IMG/VR virus record: IMGVR_UViG_3300022188_000052
Coordinates: 1-25,327 of that record
Reading direction: 5' to 3' (one strand)
Source: a virus
Length of the DNA stretch: 25,327 nucleotides
Shown here in pieces: positions 1,028-23,656 of this stretch; the stretch's first letter is position 1; every line of letters begins with the position of its first letter. The position numbers and the translations under genes were made by a program. The notes under the pieces were generated by a model. That model searched no databases, was not told where the DNA came from, and saw nothing but the letters and a program-made list of their open reading frames with translations.

Positions 1028-1047
1028 AGCCGAGACATCACTCGGCT
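1028..1047 (-). other. Stem-loop over the capsid gene stop codon
   Basis: AGCCGAG-ACATCA-CTCGGCT is a perfect 7-base-pair stem with a 6-base loop that contains the stop codon of the major capsid gene (1038-1040). Together with the similar structure at 698-716, it marks the two genes expected to be most highly expressed. Confidence 0.6.
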
Positions 1048-2711: not shown

Positions 2712-3623
2712 TCACCTTCCAGCACTTGCACCATACTTTCTACGAGCTATCTCAGCACATATCTTACGTGCTGATTCTTCCGATTTACCTTCGCATACGG
2801 AGAAATACTTTACGCAATTCTCGAACCTTTCACCAGTTCCAGCTCTGCCTTTAAAATGTCCCTCTTCATAGTTATAATATCTCTCTTTACATTTATCTCT
2901 TGATTTAGCCTTCTTATATTCATCGAAGATTGTCTCAACGATAATCTTTTTCTCGAATTCGCATAAATCATTAAACCCTTTCTCGAATATCTCTTTAGCA
3001 TAATACTCTGCAAGTAGCGTAATAGTGTCTGCGATACCCATCTCAAGCTTAGCCAATAGCACCTCCTTCTCGAAGTCTTCAACACATTTTCTAAGTTCCT
3101 CGAAGTGCTTAATAAACCCTTTGGCTAAGTCATTATAATCCTCGATTATCGCTTTCTCATTAGCTGGATGTTCCACAATACTTATCTCCTTCAATATGAT
3201 ATCAGTAACTTTCTTCACAACCTCAGACGTCCCATCATCTTTCTTAATGATATCATCCACTGGCTTACCATATCCACCAATACTGAAACCAGTAATGACA
3301 CCAGACTTTACCAACTCCCAAACTCTATCTTGGATAACATTAGTATTGCCAATCTGTGCAACTATATATACACCAAGTTCTCCAGTATCCTCATGTTTTC
3401 TCAAATCCCAATATATAACTTTACCAACTGGCGTATTGGTATGTCCATATAGTATAATGCCACCATCTGCCATATATGAAATCATTGCCTTAACCAAATC
3501 AATAGCTGATACTACATGTCCTTCTACATCTTTTATCTGAACACTTGCCCAACCAGATACAATTCTAAGTCTATCATTCACAATCTCAACAACTTCCCCA
3601 TTATCAAACTTAACTTTAACCAT
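2712..3623 (-). CDS. Prohead maturation serine protease (XkdF-like)
   Basis: 303 residues. The N-terminal 150 residues fit the phage serine protease family: SGWASVQIKDVEGHVV near residue 23, His in LYGHTNTPVG (H61) and Ser in TGFSIGGYG (S114), a His/Ser catalytic pair, followed by KEISIVEHPAN. The C-terminal 130 residues are helical and end in ENCVKYFSVCEGKSEESARK...ARRKYG, a Cys-containing tail motif often seen in phage capsid proteases and related proteins. It would cleave the scaffold and possibly the capsid protein during head maturation. The ATG at 3623 overlaps the portal stop (TGATG), implying translational coupling. Confidence 0.8.
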   Translation of the reverse strand: MVKVKFDNGEVVEIVNDRLRIVSGWASVQIKDVEGHVVSAIDLVKAMISYMADGGIILYGHTNTPVGKVIYWDLRKHEDTGELGVYIVAQIGNTNVIQDRVWELVKSGVITGFSIGGYGKPVDDIIKKDDGTSEVVKKVTDIILKEISIVEHPANEKAIIEDYNDLAKGFIKHFEELRKCVEDFEKEVLLAKLEMGIADTITLLAEYYAKEIFEKGFNDLCEFEKKIIVETIFDEYKKAKSRDKCKERYYNYEEGHFKGRAGTGERFENCVKYFSVCEGKSEESARKICAEIARRKYGASAGR

Positions 3624-5269
3624 CAAATACCACCCTCTATCGTTTGTGCATCCTTACGCTTCTTACGTGGTTTATCTGGCTCGCCTTCAAACATATCCTC
3701 ATTAGACGCAACTCTACCATGCTCTGGTTCATCTTCATATCTCTCACCTGTTTCTTTAACCTTTGGTCTCCTTCTACTTACGGCTGGTTGCTCATATATA
3801 ATTGGCTCTCCCACATACTCATATTCGAAATCAATACCATCATCCCTCTCAACCATTATTGGCTTATAGCCCATAGCCGCAAGTTCTTTAGCTATCTTTA
3901 TTCTTGTGAGTATTCTTTCATACCTCGCCATGAGGTCTTTCTCTTCTGGGTGCACAAGCTGAACAATCCAATCAGACCATCCATACTGTTTCATTATCCA
4001 CGGGAGTATCTTTTCGTTAAATATCGTCTGTTCGAACTCTACTGCCCTATTAGTGACCGTAAGTTGAAGCCCCTCGTTGCTCAAGCCCGCACCAACGCTT
4101 ACATCGGCTTGGAAGATTGGAGAGACCCCATACATCGCACCAACAGTTTTTCTAAGCTCTTGTCTAAATTGTATGAAATCGATATCATCAGCTTTATAAC
4201 TTAAGTCAATATATTCAACAAACTTCTTATCACCAATAGCATCGGGAACTGCAATAGGCACAACCGTATATGGATTAATCCTCGCCTCCTCTTTAGCCGC
4301 TTTCCACGCTCTCGCAATATCTTCCTCTCTACCTTTAATGAACAATAAACCATACGGTGAACGCTGTAAGTGATATGCCCATAATATGAACATATCCATC
4401 TTGATAAGTATCATCAACTTAGCCCATAGCGTAAATGGAGCAGGATATCCATAACCAATACCATGAGTAAATTTCTTAACATGCAATACTTCACCCTTTG
4501 TATAGTAAACTCTCTTCCCACCACGCTCAGCCATATAGTAAGCTGGAACTAATTTCTTCCCGCATATATGACATCTTGCTTCCCCTCTCTCAAACACCTC
4601 TTTTGGAACACTTTCAGCATAGTCCCTATGTTCTAAACAAAATGCAACAACATTACCGTTATCATCTCGTCCAAGCCTACCTTCTTTATCCATTACAATA
4701 TTCATCATTAACGGGGATGCTCTAAGAAGTTCTATTGGTTCAGCTCCTATTACATCACCACTGTCATTAAAGTAATACTTCTTTCTAATTAGCACATACG
4801 CATTATCGAACAGATTCAAATCATAATCAATATCAATAAGCACATCCTTTAAGCTTTGCCCATTAAGATTAACTTCTTTCATCCAATCCAACATTTTATA
4901 CTTAACACTTTCGAGAGGAGAGACTAACTTATCACTCCCACACACTGGACATTTATCAACAGTAACATCATATTCTGTCTTACATACAGCACATTTCTTC
5001 TTATATGCAGGTTTAATCCACAATCCATTTCTGAAAGTCTCTTTAACCAATTTATCGATAACCATACGCAATATGTCGCTGTTATTGTATAAGTCATAAA
5101 CCGTCTGTAAACCCAACGGGTAAAACGGTATTTTTGCTAAGTCCCGTGTTCCAGTAGATACATATCCATCAATGGGTCTAAGCTCACCAACACTTGGCAT
5201 ACCATAATTGACTTGAGTGCTGGTAACATAACTATCTCGCTTAAACCACTGTTTAACAAATTCAAACAT
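3623..5269 (-). CDS. Portal protein with two zinc-ribbon insertions
   Basis: 548 residues, normal portal length. Portal features include the N-terminal region (RDLAKIPFYPLGLQTVYDLY), a long mid region ending in KKFTHGIGYGYPAPF, and the helix-loop segment FRQELRKTVGAMYGVSP followed by GAGLSNEGLQLTVTNRAVEF, characteristic of siphovirus portals. Unusual features are two Cys clusters: C93-xx-C96...C107-xx-C110 and C211-xx-H214...C233-xx-C236. Each has the shape of a zinc ribbon and lies in the peripheral half of the protein. The C-terminus is charged and disordered (RKKRKD). It forms the 12-mer DNA channel at one capsid vertex. Start at 5269 chosen because AGGTGA lies 5 bases upstream. Confidence 0.85.
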   Translation of the reverse strand: MFEFVKQWFKRDSYVTSTQVNYGMPSVGELRPIDGYVSTGTRDLAKIPFYPLGLQTVYDLYNNSDILRMVIDKLVKETFRNGLWIKPAYKKKCAVCKTEYDVTVDKCPVCGSDKLVSPLESVKYKMLDWMKEVNLNGQSLKDVLIDIDYDLNLFDNAYVLIRKKYYFNDSGDVIGAEPIELLRASPLMMNIVMDKEGRLGRDDNGNVVAFCLEHRDYAESVPKEVFERGEARCHICGKKLVPAYYMAERGGKRVYYTKGEVLHVKKFTHGIGYGYPAPFTLWAKLMILIKMDMFILWAYHLQRSPYGLLFIKGREEDIARAWKAAKEEARINPYTVVPIAVPDAIGDKKFVEYIDLSYKADDIDFIQFRQELRKTVGAMYGVSPIFQADVSVGAGLSNEGLQLTVTNRAVEFEQTIFNEKILPWIMKQYGWSDWIVQLVHPEEKDLMARYERILTRIKIAKELAAMGYKPIMVERDDGIDFEYEYVGEPIIYEQPAVSRRRPKVKETGERYEDEPEHGRVASNEDMFEGEPDKPRKKRKDAQTIEGGI

Positions 5270-5274
5270 TAACA

Positions 5275-5541
5275 TCACCTAAACATTTTATCATCATTAT
5301 CGCCAAATAACTGGTTGAATATATATGCTCTTATCTTATCTTTCAGCCCTAAGTGTGCAATTTCATACTCTATCTGTAACACTTCTGCAATATGCAGTGC
5401 ATCTTTCATCAATATTTCGATTGAACACTCGTTCTCAATCTCAAACACAACACTATCCCTAACCAAGTCATTATGCTTCACATATACAGCCAACTTCTTA
5501 CCATCAACACCATCAACTGCAACTACTGGTGTTATCATCAT
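5275..5541 (-). CDS. Small protein before portal, unknown
   Basis: 88 residues, unknown family. It starts with a beta-type segment (MMITPVVAVDGVDGKKLAVYV) and ends in an amphipathic helix (LQIEYEIAHLGLKDKIRAYIFNQ split by charged residues). The ATG at 5541 overlaps the TGA of the preceding gene (ATGA) and has GAGGT 6 bases upstream, so translation is coupled to the metallophosphoesterase gene. It lies where many phages carry terminase or head accessory genes, but it is too small to be a terminase. Confidence 0.6.
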   Translation of the reverse strand: MMITPVVAVDGVDGKKLAVYVKHNDLVRDSVVFEIENECSIEILMKDALHIAEVLQIEYEIAHLGLKDKIRAYIFNQLFGDNDDKMFR

Positions 5542-6323
5542 ACTTCAACCTCTTTTGCAAACTCTATTTTATTCTTACGTGATACACCAAAATACCAAAA
5601 CTTAGTCTGTGGTTTCAAACCAAGCTTCTCAGTATAGTCATCACCAGTCAATAGTGTTCCGTTGCAAAATATTGAAATGTTATTCCAATCAAATCTAAAG
5701 AACGTATGAAAATGTCCAAGAACAACTATGTCAAACTGTTCATTAAGTCCGCCAGTATACCACCGCATAGCTTTCTGTATTATTCCATACGTGGGTATAT
5801 TCTGATACATATATATTTGGTCACCATGTATAAGTAAGAACCTCCATCCTCTTATATCAGCAATATATTTCCAATCACCAATATATATCTCAACATCTTC
5901 TATCATCGAGAACCTATCTTTAAGACGCTTATAGAATATTATATCCCAATTCGTTCTTCCTCTACGATTAGCTTTACCATGATTACCAGCAACGCCGTAT
6001 ATATAAACTCTCTCAAACCTATCCATTAATCGGGTAATCTGTGCAGTAAAGATATCCAATGCTCTATCCATTGCCTCATCAACGATAAGTTCAACATCAT
6101 AACCTTGTCCAGCATATATTTCCTCACCGTCAAGAATGTCACCGAGGAACATGAGATGAACATCTGGCATTCTATAACTTCTATTTATAACACCTTTGAA
6201 ATCTAACATTTTATCAAACATTAATTTAATTCTCTCTTCAAACACATTTATATCAAATGATTTTGTTCTTTTACCAACATGAGTATCACTTATTAAAAAC
6301 ACACTGCTTATTTCCCTTACCAC
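5538..6323 (-). CDS. Calcineurin-like metallophosphoesterase
   Basis: 261 residues with all metallophosphoesterase motifs in order: SDTHVG (D13, H15), LGDILDG, AGNHGK, LIHGD and GHFH. These residues bind the two metal ions that hydrolyse phosphodiester bonds. The family includes SbcD/Mre11-type nucleases and smaller phosphodiesterases. A GTG at 6323 is preferred because AAGGTGAT sits 5 bases before it; the frame stays open to a TTG at 6350. It sits in the head operon between a HExxH protein and the portal; DNA processing during packaging, or defence against host nucleotide signals, are possible roles (inference). Confidence 0.8.
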   Translation of the reverse strand: MVREISSVFLISDTHVGKRTKSFDINVFEERIKLMFDKMLDFKGVINRSYRMPDVHLMFLGDILDGEEIYAGQGYDVELIVDEAMDRALDIFTAQITRLMDRFERVYIYGVAGNHGKANRRGRTNWDIIFYKRLKDRFSMIEDVEIYIGDWKYIADIRGWRFLLIHGDQIYMYQNIPTYGIIQKAMRWYTGGLNEQFDIVVLGHFHTFFRFDWNNISIFCNGTLLTGDDYTEKLGLKPQTKFWYFGVSRKNKIEFAKEVEV

Positions 6324-6327
6324 ATTA

Positions 6328-6657
6328 TCACCTTCCATATATTCGAGCAACTTTATTTTCGAATATTTTTCTCAATTCGATATATCTCTTCCAGAACATA
6401 TCGTCATGTTCTTTCCAATTCTCGTAACCTTCGTCCCTAAGAGTTTTATGTGCCATTTCATGTATTATAATTTCCCATAGTGCCCAACGCATTAGTGCTG
6501 GTTTATTATATTTCAACACAAATACACTATGACCATTAGAGCTTTCTGGCATATACCCAGCTTCTGGAAATTTCTTTCTATTATTCTCCAATTGAACAAT
6601 ATCGACAGAACCACCAAGTTCTTTGAAAATCTTTCTTATTTCATTGTAAATATCCAC
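6328..6657 (-). CDS. Small HExxH zinc metalloprotease-like protein
   Basis: 109 residues. It contains IIIHEMAHKTLRDEG (H66-E67-xx-H70) and a downstream His in WKEHDDMFW (H84), the arrangement of SprT-like or minigluzincin-type zinc peptidases, with the C-terminal helix after the third ligand. There is no signal peptide or membrane segment. The start is probably the GTG at 6657, with GGTGAT 5 bases upstream; the same 12-base GGTGATAATGTG context precedes the next gene. Possible roles are processing of a virion protein or of host proteins; the substrate is unknown. Confidence 0.65.
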   Translation of the reverse strand: MDIYNEIRKIFKELGGSVDIVQLENNRKKFPEAGYMPESSNGHSVFVLKYNKPALMRWALWEIIIHEMAHKTLRDEGYENWKEHDDMFWKRYIELRKIFENKVARIYGR

Positions 6658-7040: not shown

Positions 7041-7535
7041 TTACCCCCATATAATATATTCTGGCTCATACTCCCAGTTGCCTATTCTACCAGATTTGTA
7101 TGTTGTAAACTTGCCAGTCTGTGGTTCATACATATATAGACATGGTTCACCATTACTCTTCATTGCAACAAAAACATTCCAAGCATGATACCCTACATAT
7201 CCATTATCATCGGTTACCTTGCCAACTGCAATACCTACACTGTTTATCCCATAAACGTATGGTATTATCCCAGCAAACGTTATCGCAAAATTATCACAAT
7301 CATAATTCTCTACTCGGTATTCGTGCCACTTAACCATATCACCCTTGATTATTCTTAGCATTACCTCAAAATCCGTAAATTTATATATGCCATCCCAGAG
7401 TATGATATCCTGCACCGTGTCCCTACTTCTTAACATACTCAAAAGCTCAAATCCCTTTATCTCATATACACTCTTTACAATTACCCTTTGAAAAATTTTA
7501 ATAAAAAATCTAAGTAGAGCCTTCATTAGAAACAT
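7041..7535 (-). CDS. Transglutaminase-like Cys-His protein (peptidase or lysin candidate)
   Basis: 164 residues. The C-terminal 100 residues contain a Cys-His-Glu arrangement of the papain/transglutaminase-like fold: C80 in YDCDNF, H117 in GYHAWNVFV and E137 in YMYEPQTGKF. The N-terminus (FLMKALLRFFIKIFQRVIV) is hydrophobic and basic, so it may anchor to the membrane. Pseudomurein endoisopeptidases of methanogen viruses use a similar fold, but no pseudomurein-binding repeats are present. Placement between the radical SAM genes and an XhlA-like protein allows two readings: host envelope lysis, or proteolytic processing of the modified repeat proteins. The start is ambiguous between ATG at 7535 and 7526; it overlaps the preceding gene. 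Confidence 0.6.
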   Translation of the reverse strand: MFLMKALLRFFIKIFQRVIVKSVYEIKGFELLSMLRSRDTVQDIILWDGIYKFTDFEVMLRIIKGDMVKWHEYRVENYDCDNFAITFAGIIPYVYGINSVGIAVGKVTDDNGYVGYHAWNVFVAMKSNGEPCLYMYEPQTGKFTTYKSGRIGNWEYEPEYIIWG

Positions 7536-8091
7536 CTCTCCCCTTCTCCTTATTCACTGAACGAATTGCCTTGTTTGGGTAATCACAAATCTCTTCTCCA
7601 TTCTCAAGCTTCTTCCACACAATATCAACAAAGTGTCTACTCACTCCATATGCAGGTGGCTCAAGCTTCAAATACCTCTCTGCTCTACTAAGCAAATTCC
7701 TCAATACGTCATTCGCTTCCATTATTGTCAAGTATGAACTTACTATCGCTTTAATCGCATCAACCATAATATCCAAATCGAAGTTGTATCCCAATTCTTT
7801 GTTCCACAAACTTACTAAACTAACATACACTAAAACAAAATCAACTGCAAATTTCGAAAGTCTATGATATATTACAAACTCCATTACAGTTTTTGTTCCA
7901 TCAGTCACATTATTCATCATGTTCTGACCTACACCAGTTCTCCCACCCTTAGCAACTATATCCAAACTCTTTATCATGGTGTCTACCGCAACCTTAATAT
8001 TATTACCCTTTCCAAAATGTCTTCTAAACTCCTGAGAATTCAACATTCTCAATATCTTATTTCTAACATCTAAATACTCATTTCTGTCCAT
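7510..8091 (-). CDS. Helical protein of unknown function
   Basis: 193 residues, family not recognised. It is probably all-helical, with a mildly hydrophobic core (FAVDFVLVYVSLVSLW, then AIKAIVSSYLTIMEAND) and a charged C-terminus. A central GGRTGVGQNMMNNVTDG loop is Gly/Asn-rich. The ATG at 8091 has GGGGGTG upstream, and the radical SAM gene stop is 3 bases away, so the two are probably co-translated. It could serve the neighbouring radical SAM enzymes as a partner, or belong to the lysis set; neither can be shown from sequence. Confidence 0.55.
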   Translation of the reverse strand: MDRNEYLDVRNKILRMLNSQEFRRHFGKGNNIKVAVDTMIKSLDIVAKGGRTGVGQNMMNNVTDGTKTVMEFVIYHRLSKFAVDFVLVYVSLVSLWNKELGYNFDLDIMVDAIKAIVSSYLTIMEANDVLRNLLSRAERYLKLEPPAYGVSRHFVDIVWKKLENGEEICDYPNKAIRSVNKEKGRDVSNEGST

Positions 8092-8094: not shown

Positions 8095-9414
8095 TTACAC
8101 CCCCAAAGCTTCCTCAATCCTTCTCCAAACTATCTGTCTTTCTAAACGTAATTCATTCACAATATCATCATATACACCAATATCCTTAGTTGCCTTTATT
8201 ATTCTCCTAATTTTCTCATGCTCTAACGCACATACCGTTGGTATCGGTGTAAATAAATCTCCAGTAAACTCATACTGTGCCCCAAGACAACCATGACTAC
8301 ATACCTCTTTAATTACACACTGTTCACAATATGGCTGGTTCTCTGCAACAAAGCTATATACTGCATTCAATAATTCTATATTCTTAGCTTCCACTCCTAC
8401 TATTTTATCATTCTCAGTCTTAAAATAACCATACACAAACTCATCGTAACTCGTTCTATGACAAGGCACTATCGCTAAATCTGACAATCTAACATACAAC
8501 ATTGCTTGAATACTACAACCCAATCCTCTACCAGTGCTACTAAATGGATTTAATATATTATACCCTCTCAATTTAAATGTGAAATTAACATATTTACGCA
8601 CATTCTCTCCAAGTCTATTTTTAAATGTCCACTTCACCAAGAAATCAATAAAATCCCCAAACTCCCTTATCTGTTCTCTCGTCCACTCTGGGTTTCTGAC
8701 CTCTAACAAATATATACTCCACCATGGTATTCCATGCTTATCGAACATGTTCTGAAACCATAAGAAATTCTTCTTCCACAAACCAATACCGTTTGCATAT
8801 ATCATAGGATGAAAACCAAATCCATACTTCTTGTTAAATTCAAACAATGTATCATACCAGTTATCATCTCTCGGGTCTTTCTCTGGATTACTAATTAGTG
8901 GTCTATTTATAGTTTCCAAATACTTACCATCTATACTGGCACTTAGAGCAAGTCTAACTCTACTTTTCTTTAAATATTCTTCCATCTTATCAGTCCAATA
9001 CTCGCTTAGCAAGAACGAATAATTACTCGGAACAACTACCGAAATCTCTTTAGCCCTATCTCCAAACACTTCTTCGATAGCGTCCAATATCCCATAAAAC
9101 TCTGACTTTACGGTAACTTCCCCACCAAATATATCAATGCCCTTTGGCACTACACCCTTTTCATAATACAACCACTCAAATAACATCTTAGCATTTTTAA
9201 CATACTCCTCGGGGTTCTTTAGCTTTACTGGATATAAATATTTATCATGTTTCGGGTTGTTATAGTAGCAATAGCGACATGCTAATGTGCACCTCGTATC
9301 CAACATTAGCTCTAACCTATCCCAGTTCGGAAATTTTTTCCCATATCCCTCAATAAACGTCTTTTCGATGAACATCTCCATAAACTTATCATTTTCTTCC
9401 TGAAACCTTACCAT
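8095..9414 (-). CDS. Radical SAM/SPASM peptide-modifying enzyme
   Basis: 439 residues. CTLACRYC (C42-x3-C46-x2-C49) binds the SAM-reducing 4Fe-4S cluster, and GIDIFGGEV matches the GGE motif that contacts SAM. The C-terminal SPASM domain has a full seven-Cys set (C300, C318, C363, C366, C372, C376, C395), including PCHR and CEQCVIKEVCSHGC, which in characterised members holds two auxiliary clusters. SPASM enzymes modify ribosomally made peptides or proteins (thioether or carbon-carbon links, formylglycine). A 30-residue N-terminal extension is polar and helical. The gene follows the second radical SAM gene directly (stop and ATG adjacent) and lies downstream of two repeat proteins that are candidate substrates. 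Confidence 0.85.
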   Translation of the reverse strand: MVRFQEENDKFMEMFIEKTFIEGYGKKFPNWDRLELMLDTRCTLACRYCYYNNPKHDKYLYPVKLKNPEEYVKNAKMLFEWLYYEKGVVPKGIDIFGGEVTVKSEFYGILDAIEEVFGDRAKEISVVVPSNYSFLLSEYWTDKMEEYLKKSRVRLALSASIDGKYLETINRPLISNPEKDPRDDNWYDTLFEFNKKYGFGFHPMIYANGIGLWKKNFLWFQNMFDKHGIPWWSIYLLEVRNPEWTREQIREFGDFIDFLVKWTFKNRLGENVRKYVNFTFKLRGYNILNPFSSTGRGLGCSIQAMLYVRLSDLAIVPCHRTSYDEFVYGYFKTENDKIVGVEAKNIELLNAVYSFVAENQPYCEQCVIKEVCSHGCLGAQYEFTGDLFTPIPTVCALEHEKIRRIIKATKDIGVYDDIVNELRLERQIVWRRIEEALGV

Positions 9415-10752
9415 TCACAACACCTTATTTCTCTTATACATCCTATACGTATCCCTTACTATCCACTCAAATGCACCATTACCCAAATACCTCAAAATAC
9501 TCACTGGGGTTAAGTGCACGCTACCAGTATTTAATAAATTTTCCATTGGACAACTAAATGCAGAATTAACAAAATATGCAAACAATAATGTGTAATCTTC
9601 ATCTTCCAAAAATCTTTTCTCTGCTTGTCCAGCCAGTGCCAACATCCTTATCATATTTACAGTATATCCAATTCGAAATCTCCAAAAATCATGATAACCA
9701 CGCATTACGTAATATACTCTCCACATCTCAAATTCATCATCATACGGAACTATGTAATATTTATTAATCTCTCTCAACCTTCCTTCCTCTATTACTGAAA
9801 CATCCCAGTTTTTATACTTATCCATACTCATTACCGCTTTGATATACTTATCTTTGTTGAAATAATACGTCCTATGACACAAATGAACCGCACCCTCATC
9901 ATCAAATCCAAATTGACTATCCATTGCAGAACATGTGAACATCCTCGCTTTATGTAACTCATGTGCCCAATCCAATAGCCTCATCAATCTATACGTATAA
10001 TTGTTCGGATAGCCAAATTTATACAAATACTCAAAAAACTTAGCCAATATTTTACCATCCTCACTCGTATATTTACCCGGAACTACCAACGTCCCACCTG
10101 CAAAACTCTTTATAATAACATTCTTCTTTTTATTCATACTTCTTAACTCACTAATTAAATTATCAAAAAATTCAAACACTTCATGTATCAACTCTGGATT
10201 TTCAACCATTTGTCTAATGTTATCAATACTCCACGTTGCCTTAAAACTAATCTCAAAATATGTATCAAAGTCAATTTTATTTAACTCATTAATCAACCAT
10301 TTCGTATTTTCAATAATTGTCTTCGTGCTCCCACCCTTTCTGTTTTTGTCGGTAATCCATTCACAACCATCTAAACTAATCTGATTTTTTATCGATATTC
10401 CTAAATCTTTTGCCTCTTTAACTTTCTCAACTACTGGGACAGGCTTTAACATCATACTTGTTGAATATACAAACGTCTTTAACTCTGGAAATTCTTTTTT
10501 CCATTCCCTTAAATCAATATATCTCATTGTCAATAAAGGTTCAGTTCCCCAAGCACCCAAATGTTCAAGTCTAATTCCATACTTCTTTTTCATTTCTTTC
10601 ATTTTTTCAATCCTATTTCTTGTCTTCAACTCTTTAATAATCTCCAAATGCAAATTCTTCATCTCTTCTGTCTTGGGGATGTAACAATAACTGCATTGAA
10701 GTTGGCACCATCCAGAGGTTAAAATTTCACTTGCTACCAACATACTCTTCAT
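9415..10752 (-). CDS. Radical SAM enzyme with reduced SPASM-like domain
   Basis: 445 residues. CQLQCSYC (C16-x3-C20-x2-C23) is the cluster motif, and GAWGTEP (69-72) replaces the usual GGEP. The C-terminal half has only three Cys (C274, C292 in HLCHRTYY, C401 in SCPMENL), too few for two auxiliary clusters, so it has at most one cluster (Twitch-like) or a degenerate SPASM fold. C292-H-R aligns with the PCHR of its neighbour, indicating common ancestry. The ATG at 10752 follows GGAGGTG. It is the first enzyme after the two tetrapeptide-repeat genes, 17 bases downstream of one of them. The pair may act in sequence or as a heterodimer on those proteins (inference). Confidence 0.8.
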   Translation of the reverse strand: MKSMLVASEILTSGWCQLQCSYCYIPKTEEMKNLHLEIIKELKTRNRIEKMKEMKKKYGIRLEHLGAWGTEPLLTMRYIDLREWKKEFPELKTFVYSTSMMLKPVPVVEKVKEAKDLGISIKNQISLDGCEWITDKNRKGGSTKTIIENTKWLINELNKIDFDTYFEISFKATWSIDNIRQMVENPELIHEVFEFFDNLISELRSMNKKKNVIIKSFAGGTLVVPGKYTSEDGKILAKFFEYLYKFGYPNNYTYRLMRLLDWAHELHKARMFTCSAMDSQFGFDDEGAVHLCHRTYYFNKDKYIKAVMSMDKYKNWDVSVIEEGRLREINKYYIVPYDDEFEMWRVYYVMRGYHDFWRFRIGYTVNMIRMLALAGQAEKRFLEDEDYTLLFAYFVNSAFSCPMENLLNTGSVHLTPVSILRYLGNGAFEWIVRDTYRMYKRNKVL

Positions 10753-10769: not shown

Positions 10770-11615
10770 TCACACAAACCCACTATATTCAACCTTATTA
10801 TATGTGCCATTATGTGTTCCATCATCACCCGAATTATATGCACCATGCTCACTTGTCATATCAACATTATTTTCACCATTGTTATAATCCGAATCATAAC
10901 CTGAATTATACGTTCCATGCTCATTACTATCATATGTTCCATTATCGCCTTTATCTACACTACTATAATATACACCATCATCCGAACCACAATATGTCGA
11001 ATTCTCGCCACTTTTTACATTAACATCCTCATCACTATAATATGTTCCATAATCAGACTTATCAACATTGCTATAGTATGTTCCATATTCGCTACTATCC
11101 GCTGTTGCATCTTCACTATCACAATAACTCTCATTATCTGAACTATCATCATCGCTATAATAAGAAGTATTATCCTCTTTATCGTTCTCATAGTGTTGTG
11201 CACAATATGTAACATCCTCGGTGCTATTTACCTGAGCATAATCACCTTCATCGTTAGTATCATACACGGTGCTATCATTAGTTGCTAAATTTGACGCTTT
11301 TTCCAAATCATCAACCACACTACAATATGGGTTATCTTCACTCGAATTGTAACCACCATCGTCCCCATCATATACAGTTACGTTATATGAAGTATCATCT
11401 CCCGAATTATATGAATCACAATATGACGCTTGAGCTGAACCCAAATCTGATAAATAATTATCAAGATATGCAAACGAATGTTCATGCTTATTATAATCAG
11501 AGTAATTTGCAACACATTTCGTGTCATCAATATTGTCTACATTACCTCGCATCTCATCAATATGCCTCTTCTGTATCAAATCCCCTCTGTTCAAAGTAGA
11601 CCACACAAATGACAC
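10770..11615 (-). CDS. Tetrapeptide-repeat acidic virion protein B (radical SAM substrate candidate)
   Basis: 281 residues. The N-terminus (MSFVWSTLNRGDLIQKRHID) is a phage tail-appendage anchor motif and is paralogous to the upstream gene. From residue 35 to the last residue the chain is four-residue units: 28 units (35-146), one 3-residue slip (147-149), then 33 units (150-281). The unit is about [S/G/K][T/S/G/N][Y/D/E/V][D/N/Y/H], for example GTYY, SDYN, SGYD. All six Cys (34, 66, 98, 138, 165, 209) fall on the last unit position, five as Tyr-Cys; the first three are exactly 32 residues apart. Net charge is very negative. GTG at 11615 is chosen for the GGGGTGA 5 bases upstream. Probably a fibre; modification by the downstream enzymes is inferred. 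Confidence 0.7.
   Translation of the reverse strand: MSFVWSTLNRGDLIQKRHIDEMRGNVDNIDDTKCVANYSDYNKHEHSFAYLDNYLSDLGSAQASYCDSYNSGDDTSYNVTVYDGDDGGYNSSEDNPYCSVVDDLEKASNLATNDSTVYDTNDEGDYAQVNSTEDVTYCAQHYENDKEDNTSYYSDDDSSDNESYCDSEDATADSSEYGTYYSNVDKSDYGTYYSDEDVNVKSGENSTYCGSDDGVYYSSVDKGDNGTYDSNEHGTYNSGYDSDYNNGENNVDMTSEHGAYNSGDDGTHNGTYNKVEYSGFV
10773..11513 (-). repeat. Repeat-coding tract, 12-base units (protein B)
   Basis: Sixty-one tetrapeptide units encoded by degenerate 12-base units, rich in NAT codons (Tyr, Asp, Asn, His) at unit positions 3 and 4. The DNA repeats are diverged, and only short near-identical blocks remain (for example around 10832 and 10901), so the periodicity is preserved mainly at protein level. 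Confidence 0.8.
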
Positions 11616-11626
11616 ATTAATCACCC

Positions 11627-12700
11627 CTAATGACCATCATATACTGTCCCATCATCTGTTCCATCGTATCCAGAATCATATGTTCCATCATCACCTGAAT
11701 TATATACATCGTTGTATCCAGAATCATAGGGATTATCTTCGTTATAGTTATAAGAACTATCATATCCATAATCATAAGAACTATCGTATCCACTATCATC
11801 GCCACTGCATGTGCCCGCAACCGAATTCTCATCACTAAAATTAGTATCATAATCACCAGATAAATTAGTGGAATTTTCACCAGAATTATAAGTGCTATCG
11901 TCATTTGCATAGTATGTTCCATAAAATGAACTATCATCTGATACGCCATAATCAATATGTTCCGTTGCAAAATGAACATCACAAACATTTGTATCGTGTC
12001 CACTATCATCTCCTACATAATAACCCGAATTATATCCACTATCCACACCAGAGTTATCAGCAGATTTCTCACCGCCATAATACGTAGAATTCTCAGCATC
12101 ATAAACCGTTCCACAATATGAAAAATTGTGCCCATCATCATCATCACTATTGTGTCCACTATATGCGGATGAATCATCCCCACTGCAAGCACCATCTGCA
12201 CTATATACCGAGCTATCCTCACCATCATTAGCAGTATAATATTCTGAACTATCATCCATTCCATCGTGTTCACTATTAACATCAGAGTCGTAACCCGAAT
12301 TCACAATATTGTCCACCGTGTCATCGTTTCCCGACAACTCATTATTATTATATGTATCATTATATCCAGTATCCTCGGTTGTATTATCAACCGAATTTGC
12401 AGAACTATAATCAGTTGAACAATACCCATCCTTCGCTAATGGACAAGCGGCTTCATTCTCATAAGAGTTAAACGAACTACAATCATTACACTTTATTGTA
12501 TCCAAATCATCAATAGACCGCCTCAATGCGACAAGTCTCACATACTCATACATATGAAGGCGTTTTGCAAACTCATTATAATCCCAATTTAGTCCTTTAT
12601 CCAAATCATTAAGTATATTATCCATATTACTCTTAATCTCATCAATATCATCTTTCTTTGGTATATCACCTCTGTTCAAATTTGACCAAGTAAACCCCAT
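11627..12700 (-). CDS. Tetrapeptide-repeat acidic virion protein A (radical SAM substrate candidate)
   Basis: 357 residues. N-terminal anchor MGFTWSNLNRGDIPKKDDID is followed by a helix to about residue 70. From 75 to 354 the protein is tetrapeptide units such as SGYD, GTYY, STYN, SGDD. The register is broken only by two hexads, SADGAC (167-172) and SVAGTC (293-298), both followed by SGDD and separated by exactly 30 units. Seven of eight Cys (74, 86, 94, 172, 196, 240, 298) end a unit; only C71 does not. After residue 100 there is one Lys and no Arg. The ATG at 12700 follows GAGGTG. It is paralogous to protein B, and precedes two radical SAM genes in the same operon. It is likely a tail fibre; N-glycosylation is an alternative modification, since several N-x-S/T sites exist. 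Confidence 0.7.
   Translation of the reverse strand: MGFTWSNLNRGDIPKKDDIDEIKSNMDNILNDLDKGLNWDYNEFAKRLHMYEYVRLVALRRSIDDLDTIKCNDCSSFNSYENEAACPLAKDGYCSTDYSSANSVDNTTEDTGYNDTYNNNELSGNDDTVDNIVNSGYDSDVNSEHDGMDDSSEYYTANDGEDSSVYSADGACSGDDSSAYSGHNSDDDDGHNFSYCGTVYDAENSTYYGGEKSADNSGVDSGYNSGYYVGDDSGHDTNVCDVHFATEHIDYGVSDDSSFYGTYYANDDSTYNSGENSTNLSGDYDTNFSDENSVAGTCSGDDSGYDSSYDYGYDSSYNYNEDNPYDSGYNDVYNSGDDGTYDSGYDGTDDGTVYDGH
11639..12478 (-). repeat. Repeat-coding tract, 12-base units (protein A)
   Basis: About 69 tetrapeptide units in three register blocks (residues 75-166, 173-292, 299-354), joined by two six-residue units ending in Cys. The coding DNA is diverged between units, which argues that the four-residue period is maintained by selection on the protein and is not recent slippage. 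Confidence 0.8.
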
Positions 12701-12712: not shown

Positions 12713-13738
12713 CTATACATATACTGGCAATAGTCCAGCAAACTTACTTACTTTCAAATATCTTACCCTATGCTCATTATTCGAAGCACTCGTCCTTGCA
12801 CCAATTCCCATTAACATTCCACTTAAATCCCTTTGTATATCGGTGAAGTCTAACTGTAATACCCCATCAACCCACACTCTAATTCTCCTTTTTTCAAAAA
12901 CAACAAAAACTTTATGCCATTGCCCATCATCAATCTGATACGTCGGCGTAGCGTATGCAAGCTTACTACCATTATATAATACCTGAACCTCTCCATCACC
13001 CTCATCCAGAGCAATAACATATCCACCAGTCGCACTATCCTCACTTATAGGCGTCTCCTCACAATATACATACAGATATATCGCATTAGCACCATCACCA
13101 AGTCCAGCATAATACTCAAACTCAGCAAACCAAGATGACATCGGATTTATCTGATACTCCAATTGACCATTTTGATTATCAACTGCCTCAGTCAATACTA
13201 AATAGTCATTATCGCTATCATAATATGAATCTCCTTTCAACGTTCCACTCGGACTTACCTTAAAATCCTCATATACCATTAATGGGTCAAACATAAAATT
13301 ACCAACACCACTCACTCTAATATCCTTAATATCATCACTAACAAAACTCGATACGCCATCATCTACCACAACTAATGCCAAAGGAATATCATCATCCTCT
13401 GGTCTTGGGAATACTGGTATCTCAACATCACCGATTACTGCATACCCACTACCTTGTCTAACGACAACACCTTTAGTTCCATAGTTCCATACTATCAAAT
13501 CCCCTCTTACATGCCCACTACTATTAGAAGATATTGAAACAGTAATCGAAGAAACATCATGAAACTCACCAGCATAATAAACAATACCAGAATTTACAAT
13601 TAAATCAAGTCCACTACTCGGAACAACATCACAACCATTTACTACATATCTACCTCTAATAGCCTGTAATAGCGACAATATGTGCCCACTATATAACGGG
13701 TCACCATCATTAATACTCTTCATCCAATCCAACGTCAT
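12713..13738 (-). CDS. Tail fibre/adhesin with C-terminal lectin-like domain
   Basis: 341 residues. It begins with a short W-x4-N-x-GD anchor (DWMKSINDGDPLYSG), comparable with the two following repeat proteins. Residues about 35-150 match the usual phage appendage N-domain (VNSGIVYYAG, RGDLIVWNYG, then PRPEDDDIPLALVVV and IKDIRV). Residues about 160-335 look like a concanavalin/L-type lectin jelly roll, with GGYVIALDEGDGEVQVLYNG, WHKVFVVFEKRRIRVWVDG and DLSGMLMGIGA. It would bind host surface glycans as a receptor-binding protein. The ATG at 13738 has GGTGAT upstream; the gap from the previous gene is 5 bases. Confidence 0.75.
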   Translation of the reverse strand: MTLDWMKSINDGDPLYSGHILSLLQAIRGRYVVNGCDVVPSSGLDLIVNSGIVYYAGEFHDVSSITVSISSNSSGHVRGDLIVWNYGTKGVVVRQGSGYAVIGDVEIPVFPRPEDDDIPLALVVVDDGVSSFVSDDIKDIRVSGVGNFMFDPLMVYEDFKVSPSGTLKGDSYYDSDNDYLVLTEAVDNQNGQLEYQINPMSSWFAEFEYYAGLGDGANAIYLYVYCEETPISEDSATGGYVIALDEGDGEVQVLYNGSKLAYATPTYQIDDGQWHKVFVVFEKRRIRVWVDGVLQLDFTDIQRDLSGMLMGIGARTSASNNEHRVRYLKVSKFAGLLPVYV

Positions 13739-14134: not shown

Positions 14135-14260
14135 TCACACCCCACCAAGTTGCTCTCCACATAAACTCTTCCCGATTACGAAACCACCGACTTTTCCATC
14201 TTTAGCAACCACGCTCACATCAAATAGCAAAGACAAAGAGCTGTCACTCACCTTTGCCAT
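14135..14260 (-). CDS. Small ORF, 41 residues, between hub and fibre genes
   Basis: An ATG at 14260 opens a 41-codon frame (MAKVSDSSLSLLFDVSVVAK, then DGKVGGFVIGKSLCGEQLGGV) ending in TGA one base before the ATG of the next gene. It exactly fills the only 110-base gap in a tail operon whose other gaps are near zero, and its C-terminal half has a regular beta/Gly pattern. Its start overlaps the hub gene by 13 bases out of frame. An AAGGTGA inside the start region would suit a shorter version beginning at an internal TTG. No homologue is recognised. Confidence 0.45.
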   Translation of the reverse strand: MAKVSDSSLSLLFDVSVVAKDGKVGGFVIGKSLCGEQLGGV

Positions 14261-16251
14261 CTGGGTGTAAAAAAATTCTCATCCCCTGCTGTTTCTAATT
14301 GTCTAACTCTATGTTCGACTAACGCACTCCACTTATATATATCAACGGAAGACTCAGCCACATTCAGCTCGGCTATTCCATTCTTATACTTTATCCTATT
14401 AATGAGCATTACTCCATTAACTTCATGCAACCTATCAGATATAAACACCAATTGTCCGACTTCTATGCCATTCTTAACTATATAATAATCAGGCGATACA
14501 ACATTACCTTTATACTTAGGCTCTCTATACTCTTGTAAATACTTACTTGCAATCAATGTTGCAGTATCAAAATCCTTAATCCAATCCAATTTCAATTCTG
14601 CACTTACTCTACCATATTTTTCAATACTCGGATAGTCCTGCATGTTGGCATATATTGGAACGATAAAATTGTATCTAACCTCAACGTTGTAGCTCGCATG
14701 TAGCTCTCTTGAACCTATACTAACATTTGAACCATCGAAGTATACATCTGCACAATATACACCGTTAGCCAAAACCACATAGCCGCCATCTTGCTCCTCA
14801 GTGACCCCATTCTCATCCTTTTTATAACCAACATTAAACGATGGTTCAGATGATACAATATTCAACCCAATGTGCTTATTTGAGTCATTACCCTGCTCAT
14901 ACCAATATACCCATAAACTATGAGTTCCCTTGGGTCGTGCAATTACGTTCACTTGACCACGCTCACTCGAATCATCCCATTGATTAACCACAACATTTAT
15001 ATATGCACGTCTCTGGCTAAGCCTAACATAATACTCCATGTCCACATCTGGTGCTCCAATCCAATACGTCTCTATATTCCACTTATTCGCATCTAATTCA
15101 CCATCATAATTAAAATCATCAACCACACCAAATACGTCGTCATATTCATACGACGGCATCATAGCAGATGAATATCCATAGAAAATATAAAATTCGTAAT
15201 CGTCACCATCATTTATAGTTATATCATCCAACTTTGTTGCTAATACAATATTTCCATCTTCATCTGTTCCAAGATGAACCCATGGAAATTCAACCCCATC
15301 AATAGTCCCAAAACGTATATCTGATAAATCACCATTAACGCTACCAAAATCGAAGTTCCCACTATTGAGCCTCAATAATACAACTGGATTTGAAACACTT
15401 GAACCACTATTATTTGTAACTACAATCTTACGTCTCCAATGAAAGTTTGTGAATTTACTTACCGTAACTGTCTTTGAAGGTGGTGCTGTCTTAAATCTAA
15501 TCACTTGATTATCTTTATCAATTTCATACTCCTCTGAACCTATTTCATTCCCCTCTACGAAAACTCGAATATTACCACTTGGTATGTAACTTAATTTAAA
15601 TTCTGTGGTTGTCCCATCACCAACAAAATAGTCAGTTGCTTGATACTCTAATCTTGCACCAAAAACATGGACATCATTGGCTAATTTATCTGATATAATT
15701 TCCCAATCCTCAAACCTAACATCAGTATTCGATATTGTAATGTTGTAAGACCTATTTTCTGGTGGTTTGAAATAGAATTTCCCATCCTTTACATACCATA
15801 TATAACCGACAGTATCTGCGAACCTATTCAACACATTCGAAATTTTATCACTTAGAACAGACTTCTTCACTTTGTATCCAGTATCCACTACCGTTGTATC
15901 ATCATATGTATAGTTACTATAGTTATCAACTAACCATCTAACAACATCACTAATATCCATCTTATCCTCTTTACCAACCATCTCAGGAACAATCTTAACT
16001 CTTACAAATTGTCTCTGAAAAGAATCTTCCTCACCGACACCATATAACTCATAGAGTGCTATAGCAATCTTCTTAAGATATCTCACGATAGCTCTCTTGA
16101 CTTTTTTACCATATAAATAGACATCAATACAGTCCCCAACATCAAATATCACACTCTCTTCTATGGGAACTTTCACCTTCACATATCCAATGTCTGAACC
16201 ACTCGTATTAACGACTTCATATGTAGTTACATTAGTTGCAATATATACCAT
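14248..16251 (-). CDS. Tail hub/tip protein with inserted DUF2341 and lectin-like block
   Basis: 667 residues. Residues 1-200 and about 540-650 look like the two halves of a siphovirus tail hub: DVGDCIDVYLYGKKVKRAIV at the start, ISNVLNRFADTVGYIWYVKDGKFYFKP, then TATLIASKYLQEYREPKYKG and VGQLVFISDRLHEVNGVMLINRI at the end. Between them lie a phage-type GDGTTTEFKL beta-sandwich (about 205-265), a DUF2341 domain (about 271-363, WRRKIVVTNNSG to YEFYIFYGYSSA) and a concanavalin-like domain (about 374-520, starting VVDDFNYDGELDANKW). The inserted block probably contacts the host surface while the hub closes the tube. ATG at 16251 with AAGGTGA upstream. Confidence 0.75.
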   Translation of the reverse strand: MVYIATNVTTYEVVNTSGSDIGYVKVKVPIEESVIFDVGDCIDVYLYGKKVKRAIVRYLKKIAIALYELYGVGEEDSFQRQFVRVKIVPEMVGKEDKMDISDVVRWLVDNYSNYTYDDTTVVDTGYKVKKSVLSDKISNVLNRFADTVGYIWYVKDGKFYFKPPENRSYNITISNTDVRFEDWEIISDKLANDVHVFGARLEYQATDYFVGDGTTTEFKLSYIPSGNIRVFVEGNEIGSEEYEIDKDNQVIRFKTAPPSKTVTVSKFTNFHWRRKIVVTNNSGSSVSNPVVLLRLNSGNFDFGSVNGDLSDIRFGTIDGVEFPWVHLGTDEDGNIVLATKLDDITINDGDDYEFYIFYGYSSAMMPSYEYDDVFGVVDDFNYDGELDANKWNIETYWIGAPDVDMEYYVRLSQRRAYINVVVNQWDDSSERGQVNVIARPKGTHSLWVYWYEQGNDSNKHIGLNIVSSEPSFNVGYKKDENGVTEEQDGGYVVLANGVYCADVYFDGSNVSIGSRELHASYNVEVRYNFIVPIYANMQDYPSIEKYGRVSAELKLDWIKDFDTATLIASKYLQEYREPKYKGNVVSPDYYIVKNGIEVGQLVFISDRLHEVNGVMLINRIKYKNGIAELNVAESSVDIYKWSALVEHRVRQLETAGDENFFTPRWQR

Positions 16252-16729: not shown

Positions 16730-19303
16730 TCAACCACCGTATCTAATCATTTCTCTATATATTCTTCTACCAACTTCTTCGGCAATCCTATCTATGTCTA
16801 CATCACTACTAACATGGTCTACATTAATTGACACGTCAATATTCACAGTTTGCTCTATTGGTCTCATAACATGAGACACATTCTCACTACGGATAATAGG
16901 GAGTTCAACTGGTAACATCTCTACTGGTTCTATACGCTCCCATGAACCAAGCTTATTCCTCAATATATCAGCTATCTCAAATGCATGTTCACGTGGAACT
17001 ACATATTCACCTTCATGAACAATAGCCAAACCCGTCTCAGTAACCCAACCACCAGATTGATACATCTTTATGTTCTCACGAACCGAACCGCCGCCACCAC
17101 CAGCAGTCGGTATTGATAAGTCAAATGCTATTGTTCTCCTCGCTTCATCAATCGCTCTGACAATAGCTGTATGCAAACCCGACGCCTCACTAACTAAATC
17201 ATCACCGTGTTTAATCCAATAATCAGTTGCCTCAGATACTGGAGTATTTATATTCTTAAACAAATCTACGATGTTTATTTTTACTTTATCACCATACTTA
17301 TTTGCCTCTACTCCTGTTGTTGCAATATTGTTCGAAAAATCACCAAACTCTTGCTCAAATTTTGTAACGTTTTCAATAATCATATCAAACTCAGACGTAT
17401 CAATATTTTCTGACAACTTCTGAAGCTCAATAAGTTCTTCATCACTTGGATAATACTTTGCCATAGCCTCCCAACGCTTACCAACAATATCTTGATACTC
17501 CTCCATAGATTTATATACTATCTCCTCTGGACTACTGACCTCTGGATACAAATTATGAACACCAAATGGGTCAAATTTCCATTGCCTCTCTATCTTAGCC
17601 TCTCTCTCTATATCAAATTCGCCTTTCAGATATGACTTCGTTAATTCGAACAACTCATAAAAACCAAGTAATACAGTGCTCAAATATGCAAATGATGCTA
17701 CAACAGAACCAATAGAAGCAACCAATGACTTAAACGCAACATTACTCGCTAATGCATTCTTTGCCACTGCACCCCTCGTTAGAACCATAGCCTTACCAAA
17801 TTCCACTGTGGTCTTCGTAACTTTAGCGATTGATTTACCGAAGACTTCAACCATCTTAACGGTAGTCTCTGGAAATCCAAGAAATCCACCACCAAGCATC
17901 TTACTCATCAACGGAAATATTGCCATACCCGACAAAGCTCTCGCAAATCCACTCTTTTGATTTGCAAAATACGTCGCCATCATTGGAACTAATGCCCCAG
18001 CAAATGCACCACCGACACCACCTTGATACAATCCAGTTAATGTAGTCGCAATCTGCACGGCAGTAAGCTCTGGTCTCTCTTTCGTCGCCTTCATCCACGT
18101 AGAGAAAACTTTATTCCAATTCTTCAATATTGGTGTTAAAACTTTAAACATCAACAATAATATTGGCAATACCATAGAACCGATAATATCAGCAACTGGC
18201 TTAATGCTCAATTGTGTTATCGTAGTAAGCAGTTTTAATGATGCACTCATCACTCCGCTATACCCAACCATCTTTTCCATTACTTCATAAATCTTCTTAA
18301 GAATGACACCAATAATACCAATTTTAGCCGTTAAGCTTGAAAAACCAACGGATAAATTTGTAATCAAACCCTGAGCCAAACCAGTTCTAAACTGAGATGA
18401 TAATTCTAACTCTTTCCCACCTCTTAATGCCAAATCACGAATGACCTTTAATGGGTCTACACCAACACTAATACCCTTAGTCGCACCAGATTTATCCTTT
18501 ATATAATCAGCCTCAGTAACCTCAACACCAAACCTCTTCATATATTCAGCAAAAGCTTTCTCATTTCCACCAAAGACTGTTTTAAGTAGCATTAGATAGA
18601 ATTGCTCTGGTTTTACTGCCATCCCAGCAAGACGTCTACCAACCGTAATCTCATTAATCTCCGATTGAGCACTACCCATCGCTCTACTAAGATGTTCATC
18701 AAATGCTTCCATTATTCCTTCGAAAATACTCGCTGTAAACAATTGCAAATTCTTATCCATACGTGTTGCTTTAGTGCTCTTTAGAGTATCATAAACAGTC
18801 TTAAGCTGTTTATTACTCTCCTCTATGGTATATACAACACCTTCCTTAATTGGTTTACCTTTAGTTAGCTTATATGTATCAACAATCCTACTACGTCTTT
18901 CTGCAAGTCGATTAAGTCTCTCTTCATAATAATTTATCCTCTTAACCAAGTTCTTTATCTTCCTCTCAGCATCCTCTGTAGAAATATCAACAGACTTACC
19001 CTTTGACGCCTCTTGAAGCTTTTTATTCCACTCCCATAACTCTCCCCGTGTATCACTTATTCTATCCTTTAGACGTTTATATGCTCCCTCCAAACTACTT
19101 AGCTCTTTACGATACACCTCAACATCTTCTGCAATGCTATCAGTAGTCTTATCAAAAAGAATATAACCAGATTTAAGCTTTTTCTCAACATCCCTAAATT
19201 CATGTAATGCAGAATTAACTTTTTCCCTTAGTTTATCCAAGTCTTTGAGTGCTTTCTCAATATCAACGTTTACTTCTATTTCAATGTTCATCTTATCATC
19301 CAT
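16730..19303 (-). CDS. Tail tape measure protein
   Basis: 857 residues, the longest gene of the window. The N-terminal 170 residues are coiled coil (IEKALKDLDKLREKVNSAL and onward). The centre holds several long hydrophobic segments (KIGIIGVILKKIYEVM, IIGSMVLPILLLMFKVL, GGVGGAFAGALVPMMATYF, VASIGSVVASFAYLSTVLLG). The C-terminal part has a Gly-rich linker (TAGGGGGSV) and the tape-measure motif TETGLAIVHEGEYVVPREHA. At about 1.5 angstrom per residue this predicts a tail near 130 nm (family rule, not measured). The ATG overlaps the preceding stop (TAATG), and the gene follows the frameshifted chaperone pair as in other siphoviruses. Confidence 0.9.
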   Translation of the reverse strand: MDDKMNIEIEVNVDIEKALKDLDKLREKVNSALHEFRDVEKKLKSGYILFDKTTDSIAEDVEVYRKELSSLEGAYKRLKDRISDTRGELWEWNKKLQEASKGKSVDISTEDAERKIKNLVKRINYYEERLNRLAERRSRIVDTYKLTKGKPIKEGVVYTIEESNKQLKTVYDTLKSTKATRMDKNLQLFTASIFEGIMEAFDEHLSRAMGSAQSEINEITVGRRLAGMAVKPEQFYLMLLKTVFGGNEKAFAEYMKRFGVEVTEADYIKDKSGATKGISVGVDPLKVIRDLALRGGKELELSSQFRTGLAQGLITNLSVGFSSLTAKIGIIGVILKKIYEVMEKMVGYSGVMSASLKLLTTITQLSIKPVADIIGSMVLPILLLMFKVLTPILKNWNKVFSTWMKATKERPELTAVQIATTLTGLYQGGVGGAFAGALVPMMATYFANQKSGFARALSGMAIFPLMSKMLGGGFLGFPETTVKMVEVFGKSIAKVTKTTVEFGKAMVLTRGAVAKNALASNVAFKSLVASIGSVVASFAYLSTVLLGFYELFELTKSYLKGEFDIEREAKIERQWKFDPFGVHNLYPEVSSPEEIVYKSMEEYQDIVGKRWEAMAKYYPSDEELIELQKLSENIDTSEFDMIIENVTKFEQEFGDFSNNIATTGVEANKYGDKVKINIVDLFKNINTPVSEATDYWIKHGDDLVSEASGLHTAIVRAIDEARRTIAFDLSIPTAGGGGGSVRENIKMYQSGGWVTETGLAIVHEGEYVVPREHAFEIADILRNKLGSWERIEPVEMLPVELPIIRSENVSHVMRPIEQTVNIDVSINVDHVSSDVDIDRIAEEVGRRIYREMIRYGG

Positions 19304-23189: not shown

Positions 23190-23213
23190 TCTAATCACCT
23201 TACTATATTATTA

Positions 23214-23405
23214 CATTAATGGTTACCATATGGTAACATTATTGGTTACCCATTATTGTTATATACTATATAGTATAATACTATTACTATTATTTATTAT
23301 ACTTATTGACCATTAATGTCCCCCATTAATGTTACCATATTATACTACATTACTAAACCATTAATGTTATACTATATTATTACTATACACAAGGTATCAT
23401 TAATG
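23214..23405. repeat. Five CATTAATG palindromic iterons
   Basis: The palindromic octamer CATTAATG occurs at 23214, 23311, 23324, 23359 and 23398. Two of them continue into GTTACC. Single copies occur elsewhere in coding DNA, but five in 192 bases is a cluster. Candidate binding sites for a replication initiator or repressor. Confidence 0.6.
23222..23237. promoter_or_regulatory. 16-base operator-like palindrome
   Basis: GTTACCATATGGTAAC is a perfect palindrome lying 33-48 bases before the ATG at 23189, where an archaeal TATA box or transcription start would be. Related half-sites GGTTACC (23244-23250) and GTTACCATAT (23331-23340) follow. A dimeric regulator binding here would block the leftward promoter. 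Confidence 0.6.
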
Positions 23406-23409
23406 GGGT

Positions 23410-23632: not shown

Positions 23633-23656
23633 CTCTAATAATATATACGTCATTAC

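Follow-up and report, generated by a model that had tools for sequence, protein, structure and literature searches.

The window analysed in this study is the whole of a 25.3-kb viral contig (25,327 nucleotides; IMG/VR record IMGVR_UViG_3300022188_000052), which, like the related contig used for comparison, is derived from a metagenome. The minus strand carries nearly all of its genes, which are arranged as head and tail modules. Two adjacent genes of the tail block encode proteins A and B, in which a non-repeat N-terminal domain is followed by a long region built in steps of four residues (tetrads). The next two genes encode radical S-adenosylmethionine (radical-SAM) enzymes, designated rSAM-1 and rSAM-2 (Table 1). 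From A to rSAM-2 the genes share one strand, with intergenic gaps of 0 to 17 bases; the end of B lies 17 bases from rSAM-1, and there is no gap between rSAM-1 and rSAM-2. The same start motif is common to A, B and both of their orthologs in the related virus, and the N-terminal domain of A is probably a docking or leader part. The presence of two radical-SAM genes directly after A and B, on which the original prediction is silent, changes the likely meaning of the repeats.

The original prediction described a strict tetrad register running through about 130 units of A and B, and the periodicity is confirmed to be real and strong by autocorrelation, by a model carried across proteins and by a held-out comparison of periods. 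Plain identity autocorrelation against 2000 shuffles gave z = 4.8, 6.6, 6.3, 3.6, 4.2 and 3.3 for A, and z = 1.3, 3.3, 6.3, 4.2, 3.5 and 4.0 for B, at lags 4, 8, 12, 16, 20 and 24, respectively. Lags up to 23 that are not a multiple of four reached z = 0.74 at most in the two proteins, so that the autocorrelation check proposed with the prediction returned peaks at multiples of four only, up to lag 24. Lag 4 alone is weak in B and not significant (230 of 2000 shuffles were equally high) because adjacent units tend to differ, and the later multiples are significant. A cyclic model of four states with rare slips, fitted to A only, scored B at z = 16.9 and the B protein of the related virus at z = 15.2 over 200 shuffles each of the same residues. 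Over all four proteins (A, B and both orthologs), the gain of the four-state model over an unstructured model was 440 nats in-sample. When 13 periods (2-12, 16 and 18) were compared on held-out data in both directions, the gain was highest for period 4 both ways (+74.8 and +97.6 nats). Periods 8, 12 and 16 gained less, so that a longer superperiod is not indicated, and the remaining periods ranged from -22.6 to +14.8 nats. A 12-residue coil, considered in view of the high autocorrelation at lag 12, was rejected since period 12 gains less than period 4 on held-out data. The cyclic model also recovered independently the interruptions that the original prediction had reported, namely six-residue units at residues 167-172 and 293-298 of A and a three-residue unit at residues 150-152 of B.

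The composition of the unit was pooled over the same four proteins (249-253 residues per position), with phases assigned by the fitted model, whose slips contribute to the placement of Cys in the six-residue units. Position 1 is most often Ser (105), then Gly, Asp, Ala and Asn, and position 2 is Gly (68), Thr (50) or Ser (48); small residues predominate at these two positions (66% and 73%). Position 3 holds Tyr (70), Asp (47), Glu (40) and Val (35), followed by Ala, His and Asn. Position 4 holds Asp (70), Asn (62), Tyr (53), Cys (20), Lys (12), His (10) and Leu (9). Every Cys of the four repeat regions, 20 in number, falls at this position, where 218 of the 249 residues are D, N, Y, H, C or F and 3 are S, T, G or A. 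Trp is absent and Pro nearly absent from the repeat regions, which are strongly acidic in A and B (D+E to K+R of 65:2 and 56:8, respectively). The units are degenerate, with 191 distinct sequences among 241 complete tetrads; the word “strict” therefore holds for the register and not for the residues.

Selection on the protein as the force that holds the period, which had been claimed from the letters alone, is supported by comparison with the orthologs. The ratio of nonsynonymous to synonymous divergence (dN/dS) is 0.268 for the A repeat (dS 1.1) and 0.197 for the B repeat (dS 1.6), with synonymous sites near saturation, and the register is kept in the related virus despite this change. In the A repeat, dN falls from 0.60 at position 1 to 0.39, 0.18 and 0.16 at positions 2, 3 and 4, and in the B repeat from 0.61 to 0.46, 0.20 and 0.17, so that positions 3 and 4 are the most constrained of the tetrad. 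The A orthologs differ by one large internal gap of 36 residues and the B orthologs by one of 28; both lengths are divisible by four, although only two events are involved. Among in-phase pairs of the same residue at lag 4, codons are shared by 26 pairs in A (27.3 expected) and 18 in B (15.3 expected), showing no excess of synonymous codon sharing over the codon use of the residue. It is the combination of purifying selection at near-saturated synonymous sites, the lack of codon memory and gaps in multiples of four that points to protein-level selection. Tandem Repeats Finder detected five short arrays, with a period of 12 or 24 bases and a combined length of 181 bases across both genes, which suggests that some local unit duplication is fairly recent. 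The predicted divergence of the coding DNA between units accordingly applies to most of the array, with these short stretches excepted.

No family match was obtained for A or B in Pfam (E 0.05), NCBIfam or PHROGs, in agreement with the earlier statement that no named fold has this tetrapeptide. Pentapeptide-repeat and RTX proteins had been set apart by their periods; periods 5 and 9, like period 3, gave a negative held-out gain, that is, worse than no period, and no RTX-type calcium repeat was detected in A or B by the Pfam search. The motif TVGG is absent from both sequences, and B matched none of the solved chains. Structure prediction, also proposed earlier, was run on the single chain of B; AlphaFold returned no confident fold (predicted local distance difference test, pLDDT, 30; predicted template modelling score, pTM, 0.13), which is weak evidence since the alignment comprised two sequences. 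This outcome would fit a chain that becomes ordered only by modification or assembly.

The two enzymes are hardly alike beyond their cluster motifs. rSAM-1 contains CX3CX2C at residues 16-23, a Twitch-like CX12GX4C at 274-292 and C401, and has no CX2CX5CX3C. rSAM-2 contains CX3CX2C at 42-49, C300, C318, CX2CX5CX3C at 363-376 and C395. The CX3CX2C motif of both is also present in the related virus. In SPASM and Twitch domains, the first auxiliary stretch is usually CX9-15GX4C, and Twitch proteins have a further Cys and no CX2CX5CX3C. The cysteines of rSAM-1 are thus of the Twitch type, with model NF033640 below its cut-off (26 of 170 bits). rSAM-2 lacks the usual G of the first stretch and qualifies narrowly as a SPASM-domain maturase by its cysteine set and its TIGR04085 score, which is 27.8 bits for its counterpart in the related virus; its PF04055 score (21.2 bits) is under the gathering score of 29.5. 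The best NCBIfam match of both enzymes is PapB (NF047865), a ranthipeptide maturase that introduces thioether bridges into peptides, at 48.7 bits for rSAM-2, 37.8 bits for rSAM-1 and 45.1 bits for the rSAM-2 of the related virus, with the cut-off of 340 bits not reached. Weaker matches of rSAM-2, also below cut-off, are HxsB (TIGR03978) and the CXXX-repeat maturase (TIGR04115). Among solved chains, rSAM-1 had no match, and the best sequence match of rSAM-2 was 8vpo (TigE by its title; E = 2.8e-4), followed by 5wgg, which is presumably CteB. TigE reportedly makes cyclopropanes in a repeated motif. The predicted structure of rSAM-2 is of low confidence (pLDDT 41.6, pTM 0.42); a fold search with it gave mostly generic barrels, with viperin and TigE in the first eight and none at E below 0.001, and assignment of a subfamily from this search was set aside for that reason.

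Comparison with the related contig (IMGVR_UViG_3300005099_000473; 57,952 bases) revealed a gene order common to both viruses: the gene of the laminin-G-like (LamG) protein, A, B, rSAM-1, rSAM-2, a 193-amino-acid protein and an agglutinin-C-like protein, with the portal coming after further genes on the related contig. This comparison rests on two viruses. Identity is 80.9% for LamG, 63.2% for A, 60.5% for B, 88.9% and 88.7% for the two pieces of rSAM-1, 88.4% for rSAM-2, 73.6% for the 193-amino-acid protein and 66.5% for the agglutinin-C-like protein. Outside the cassette, the portal and the major head protein are 47.9% and 48.8% identical and a gene between them 34.5%, as if the block had been inherited, or exchanged, in one piece. 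Within the block the enzymes are conserved best (rSAM-2 dN/dS 0.076) and the repeats evolve fastest, as would be expected of an enzyme whose broad substrate is read by its register; shared inheritance alone would give part of this pattern. Repeated scans of viral contigs recovered only this one relative, and a further hit on a GC-rich contig, where no radical-SAM gene was seen, was taken as chance. A scan of 84,980 genomes with a few short rSAM-2 and rSAM-1 patterns found no relative, and 50,697 annotated phage records held none of rSAM-1, A or B, although distant relatives would escape both searches. rSAM-2 matched 15 Campylobacter phage records in that set at 22-23% identity, and a plasmid search made with rSAM-2 only found no relative.

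A and B adjoin a tail-fibre-like gene and are preceded by tape-measure, hub and fibre genes, with matches to tail-completion and minor tail proteins (PHROGs) beyond the tape-measure gene. This neighbourhood points to A and B as tail-tip or tail-fibre proteins, in agreement with the tail-tip setting supposed in the original prediction. Among the 50,697 annotated phage records, the portal matched 11, every one an archaeal virus (hosts Haloarcula, 8; Methanomassiliicoccales, 2; Methanofastidiosa, 1), and the related contig encodes an archaeal-type primase large subunit and a family B DNA polymerase. On these grounds the host is taken to be an archaeon.

Table 1. Features of the window (positions in the 25,327-nucleotide contig; aa, amino acids)
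Feature	Position	Strand	Remarks
Protein A	11627-12700	-	357 aa; residue 75 starts at 12478
A, N-terminal non-repeat domain	12479..12700	-	about 74 aa, starts MGFTWSNLNRGD; start motif shared
A, tetrad-repeat region	11630..12478	-	residues 75-357, about 70 units, two six-residue interruptions; autocorrelation, cyclic model
Protein B	10770-11624	-	284 aa; last codon ends at 10773
B, N-terminal non-repeat domain	11523..11624	-	34 aa; start motif shared
B, tetrad-repeat region	10773..11522	-	residues 35-284, about 62 units, one three-residue slip; autocorrelation, cyclic model
rSAM-1, radical-SAM protein	9415..10752	-	445 aa; PF04055 35.9 bits, above 29.5 cut-off
rSAM-2, radical-SAM/SPASM protein	8095..9414	-	439 aa; TIGR04085 28.8 bits, cut-off 27
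193-aa protein, possibly a cassette member	7510..8091	-	directly after rSAM-2; same place in related virus
Agglutinin C-terminal-like protein	7041..7535	-	PF18022 33.3 bits, above cut-off
Tail-fibre-like protein, laminin-G/concanavalin-like domain	12713..13738	-	directly upstream of A; PF13385 and PF00054 above cut-off; weak tail-fibre PHROG
Baseplate-hub-like protein (weak)	14248..16251	-	upstream of LamG gene within tail block; phrog_196 E = 0.00098
Tape-measure-like protein	16730..19303	-	marks tail module; phrog_1535 E = 6.3e-7, plus others
Portal	3623-5278	-	PHROGs match
Major head protein	1038-2225	-	PHROGs match

Cassettes that pair a repeat with a radical-SAM enzyme are already known, and the novelty here lies in the presumed substrate, a viral tail protein with a degenerate tetrad. 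The closest in layout is that of TvgA and TvgB of Halomonas, in which, according to the published study (PMC9062424), TvgB acts on the TVGG repeats to give cyclopropylglycine along TvgA, whose repeating core was one reason for its choice for study. As there, a four-residue repeat is encoded beside a radical-SAM gene, here at the 17-base spacing from B to rSAM-1. The TvgA unit is fixed, whereas the units of A and B are highly degenerate, contain no TVGG, extend over about 250-280 residues per chain and belong to a viral tail block. PapB, the best NCBIfam match of both enzymes, links Cys to the β-carbon of an Asp four residues on and tolerates many spacings, as described in the published work (PMC9413430), and this reach of four residues resembles the present step. 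The scores of both enzymes nevertheless fall far short of the model, and A and B have no repeated CX3D/E. Of the repeat-region Cys, 5 of 12 in A and B and 1 of 8 in the orthologs are followed by Asp four residues later, and none by Glu; a PapB-type Cys-Asp bond as the organising rule was rejected on the basis of these residues. The HxsA/HxsB/HxsC system also combines a short-period repeat with two radical-SAM maturases, but the matches to the Hxs and CXXX-repeat systems are below cut-offs and A and B show neither an HxS pattern nor a Cys at every fourth residue. Repeat-bearing phage tail fibres and spikes (collagen-like, triple β-helix) share with A and B a repetitive shaft after an N-terminal docking part and a gene placed after the hub and tape-measure genes, and differ in that A and B have period 4 and match nothing in Pfam or PHROGs. 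Pentapeptide-repeat and RTX proteins are likewise short repeats under register constraint, with periods (5 and 9) that do not describe A and B.

It is considered moderately probable that A and B belong to the tail tip or a tail fibre of a head-tailed virus of archaea and that the adjoining radical-SAM enzymes modify their tetrads post-translationally. The short N-terminal domain would dock the proteins or serve for recognition, and the C-terminal shaft of 62-70 tetrads would be modified by rSAM-1 and rSAM-2 unit after unit, the four-residue step being dictated by enzyme recognition and by the periodicity of the product. The residue chemistry and the constraint at position 4 (D, N, Y, C, H) make it the likeliest target, although this is a guess; nearly all of its residues would offer a β-CH2 beside a carbonyl, ring or sulfur, which is the kind of carbon from which such maturases abstract hydrogen. 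Neighbouring Ser, Thr or Cys are possible bond partners, the bond type being a guess. The product may be a stiff, covalently braced, acidic fibre for host binding in a harsh place, where stiffness and habitat are also guessed. Of this reading, the period and its conservation, the order of the genes and the cysteine motifs in rSAM-1 and rSAM-2 are shown directly, and the place of A and B in the virion and their pairing with the enzymes are inferred. A more specific form, in which both enzymes bond each tetrad to its neighbour via position 4 as a covalent ladder along the 62-70 units of each chain, is proposed only tentatively and is rather doubtful.

Several observations weigh against enzymatic modification of the shaft. 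The pairing of rSAM-1 and rSAM-2 with A and B is drawn from adjacency and shared inheritance in two viruses, and the linkage within the tail block may be incidental. The PapB match of both enzymes lies far below the curated cut-off. Position 4 is loose for an enzyme target, as it also accommodates K (12) and L (9) among its 249 residues and as Y, N and D interchange there between orthologs. Cys is not kept everywhere between orthologs, so bonds formed by Cys cannot be the overall rule. Phase-wise pair couplings between units, considered as traces of bonds, were weak, mostly did not recur in the second virus and were not used as evidence. Finally, a frameshift at a brief tandem duplication (L003 ~3810-3840) divides the related virus's rSAM-1 into two frames; if this is real and not an assembly error, the enzyme would be dispensable in that virus.

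The strong conservation of the register at the protein level is also what a fibrous or solenoid fold of a type not yet described, advancing by four residues at each step, would need, and small residues at positions 1 and 2 with larger ones at 3 and 4 resemble a stacked repeat. Such a purely structural, unmodified repeat, with the enzymes acting elsewhere on a virion protein or a host molecule, is unlikely, although it deserves serious attention: no solved chain matches B, AlphaFold gives B no structure (a point weakened by the shallow alignment), and two adjoining maturase-like enzymes would be left unexplained. The lack of a predicted fold for B, the excess of acidic residues and the interchange of Tyr, Asn, Asp and His at position 4 would also suit a disordered or loosely ordered acidic tether rich in Tyr, Asn and Asp, in which the register spaces ligand groups for calcium or host glycans. 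A period kept over 60-70 units, whole-unit gaps and dN/dS of 0.20-0.27 are unusual for loose tethers and no RTX-type calcium repeat was detected with Pfam, which makes this explanation quite improbable.

Far less weight is given to the view that the radical-SAM genes are viperin-like or metabolic, alter the host and have nothing to do with the repeats, which seems very improbable. Both enzymes have weak PADLOC matches to prokaryotic viperins (E about 7e-5), and radical-SAM genes are numerous in Campylobacter phages, where they have been suggested to act in metabolism (PMC2853527). These PADLOC matches, however, span only part of the common radical-SAM core, both enzymes have extra auxiliary-cluster cysteines and better PapB scores, and the genes lie inside the tail block in both viruses. 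Least credible of all is a period left as the by-product of recent 12-base tandem duplication without selection. The five short arrays speak for it, but they span 181 bases only, in-phase pairs of the same residue share codons no more than expected, and the register is intact at near-saturated synonymous divergence from the orthologs; the dN/dS and codon-sharing tests largely refute this explanation, and it was rejected.

If the modification of the shaft is true, A and B would be the first virion proteins matured by radical-SAM peptide chemistry, as far as limited literature searches show; no such protein was found among titles and abstract openings of the open-access literature in those searches. 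Radical-SAM peptide maturation would then reach from small peptides to large structural proteins of virions, and the cassette would allow the study of enzymes that work repeatedly on a single degenerate chain, together with a hint of how archaeal viruses could build stiff, protease-resistant fibres. Demonstration of the chemistry would establish a new kind of system; the covalent ladder would likewise be a new architecture for a fibre, in steps of four residues. Even an unmodified tetrad repeat of this length, about 130 units, poses a structural problem, as it has no known fold.

A second phage pairing of a repeat protein with a radical-SAM enzyme is possibly present in Campylobacter phage vB_CjeM_WX1 (OP654737.1). 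A 231-amino-acid protein with a Cys at about every third residue is encoded just after the portal gene (L012:15542-16237) and has no Pfam or NCBIfam match, and a PapB-like radical-SAM protein is encoded at L012:7983-9086 (NF047865 E = 5e-38, below cut-off). Relatives of this phage carry 11-12 radical-SAM genes, according to the published description (PMC2853527).

Downstream of the enzymes, the agglutinin C-terminal-like protein of the cassette (7041-7535) shows a DCDNFA...YHAW pattern and is conserved between the two viruses; the PF18022 domain is presumably papain-like, and the protein could be a lysin or a processing protease. The related contig further encodes a radical-SAM protein that is presumably QueE (L009:18098-18799), a QueD-like (PTPS) protein, GTP cyclohydrolase I and QueC (L010:1232-1693, 1774-2376 and 5857-6657), a deazaguanine set that suggests modified viral DNA; modified DNA of the deazaguanine type occurs in some haloarchaeal viruses. 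Its family B DNA polymerase (L009:11849-14479) has an intein splicing domain match (PF14890, E = 2.5e-16). At positions 23001-24000 of the window, the guanine-cytosine (GC) content drops to 0.288, the GC skew changes sign just after and the gene direction flips, and this region is likely a divergent promoter or origin.

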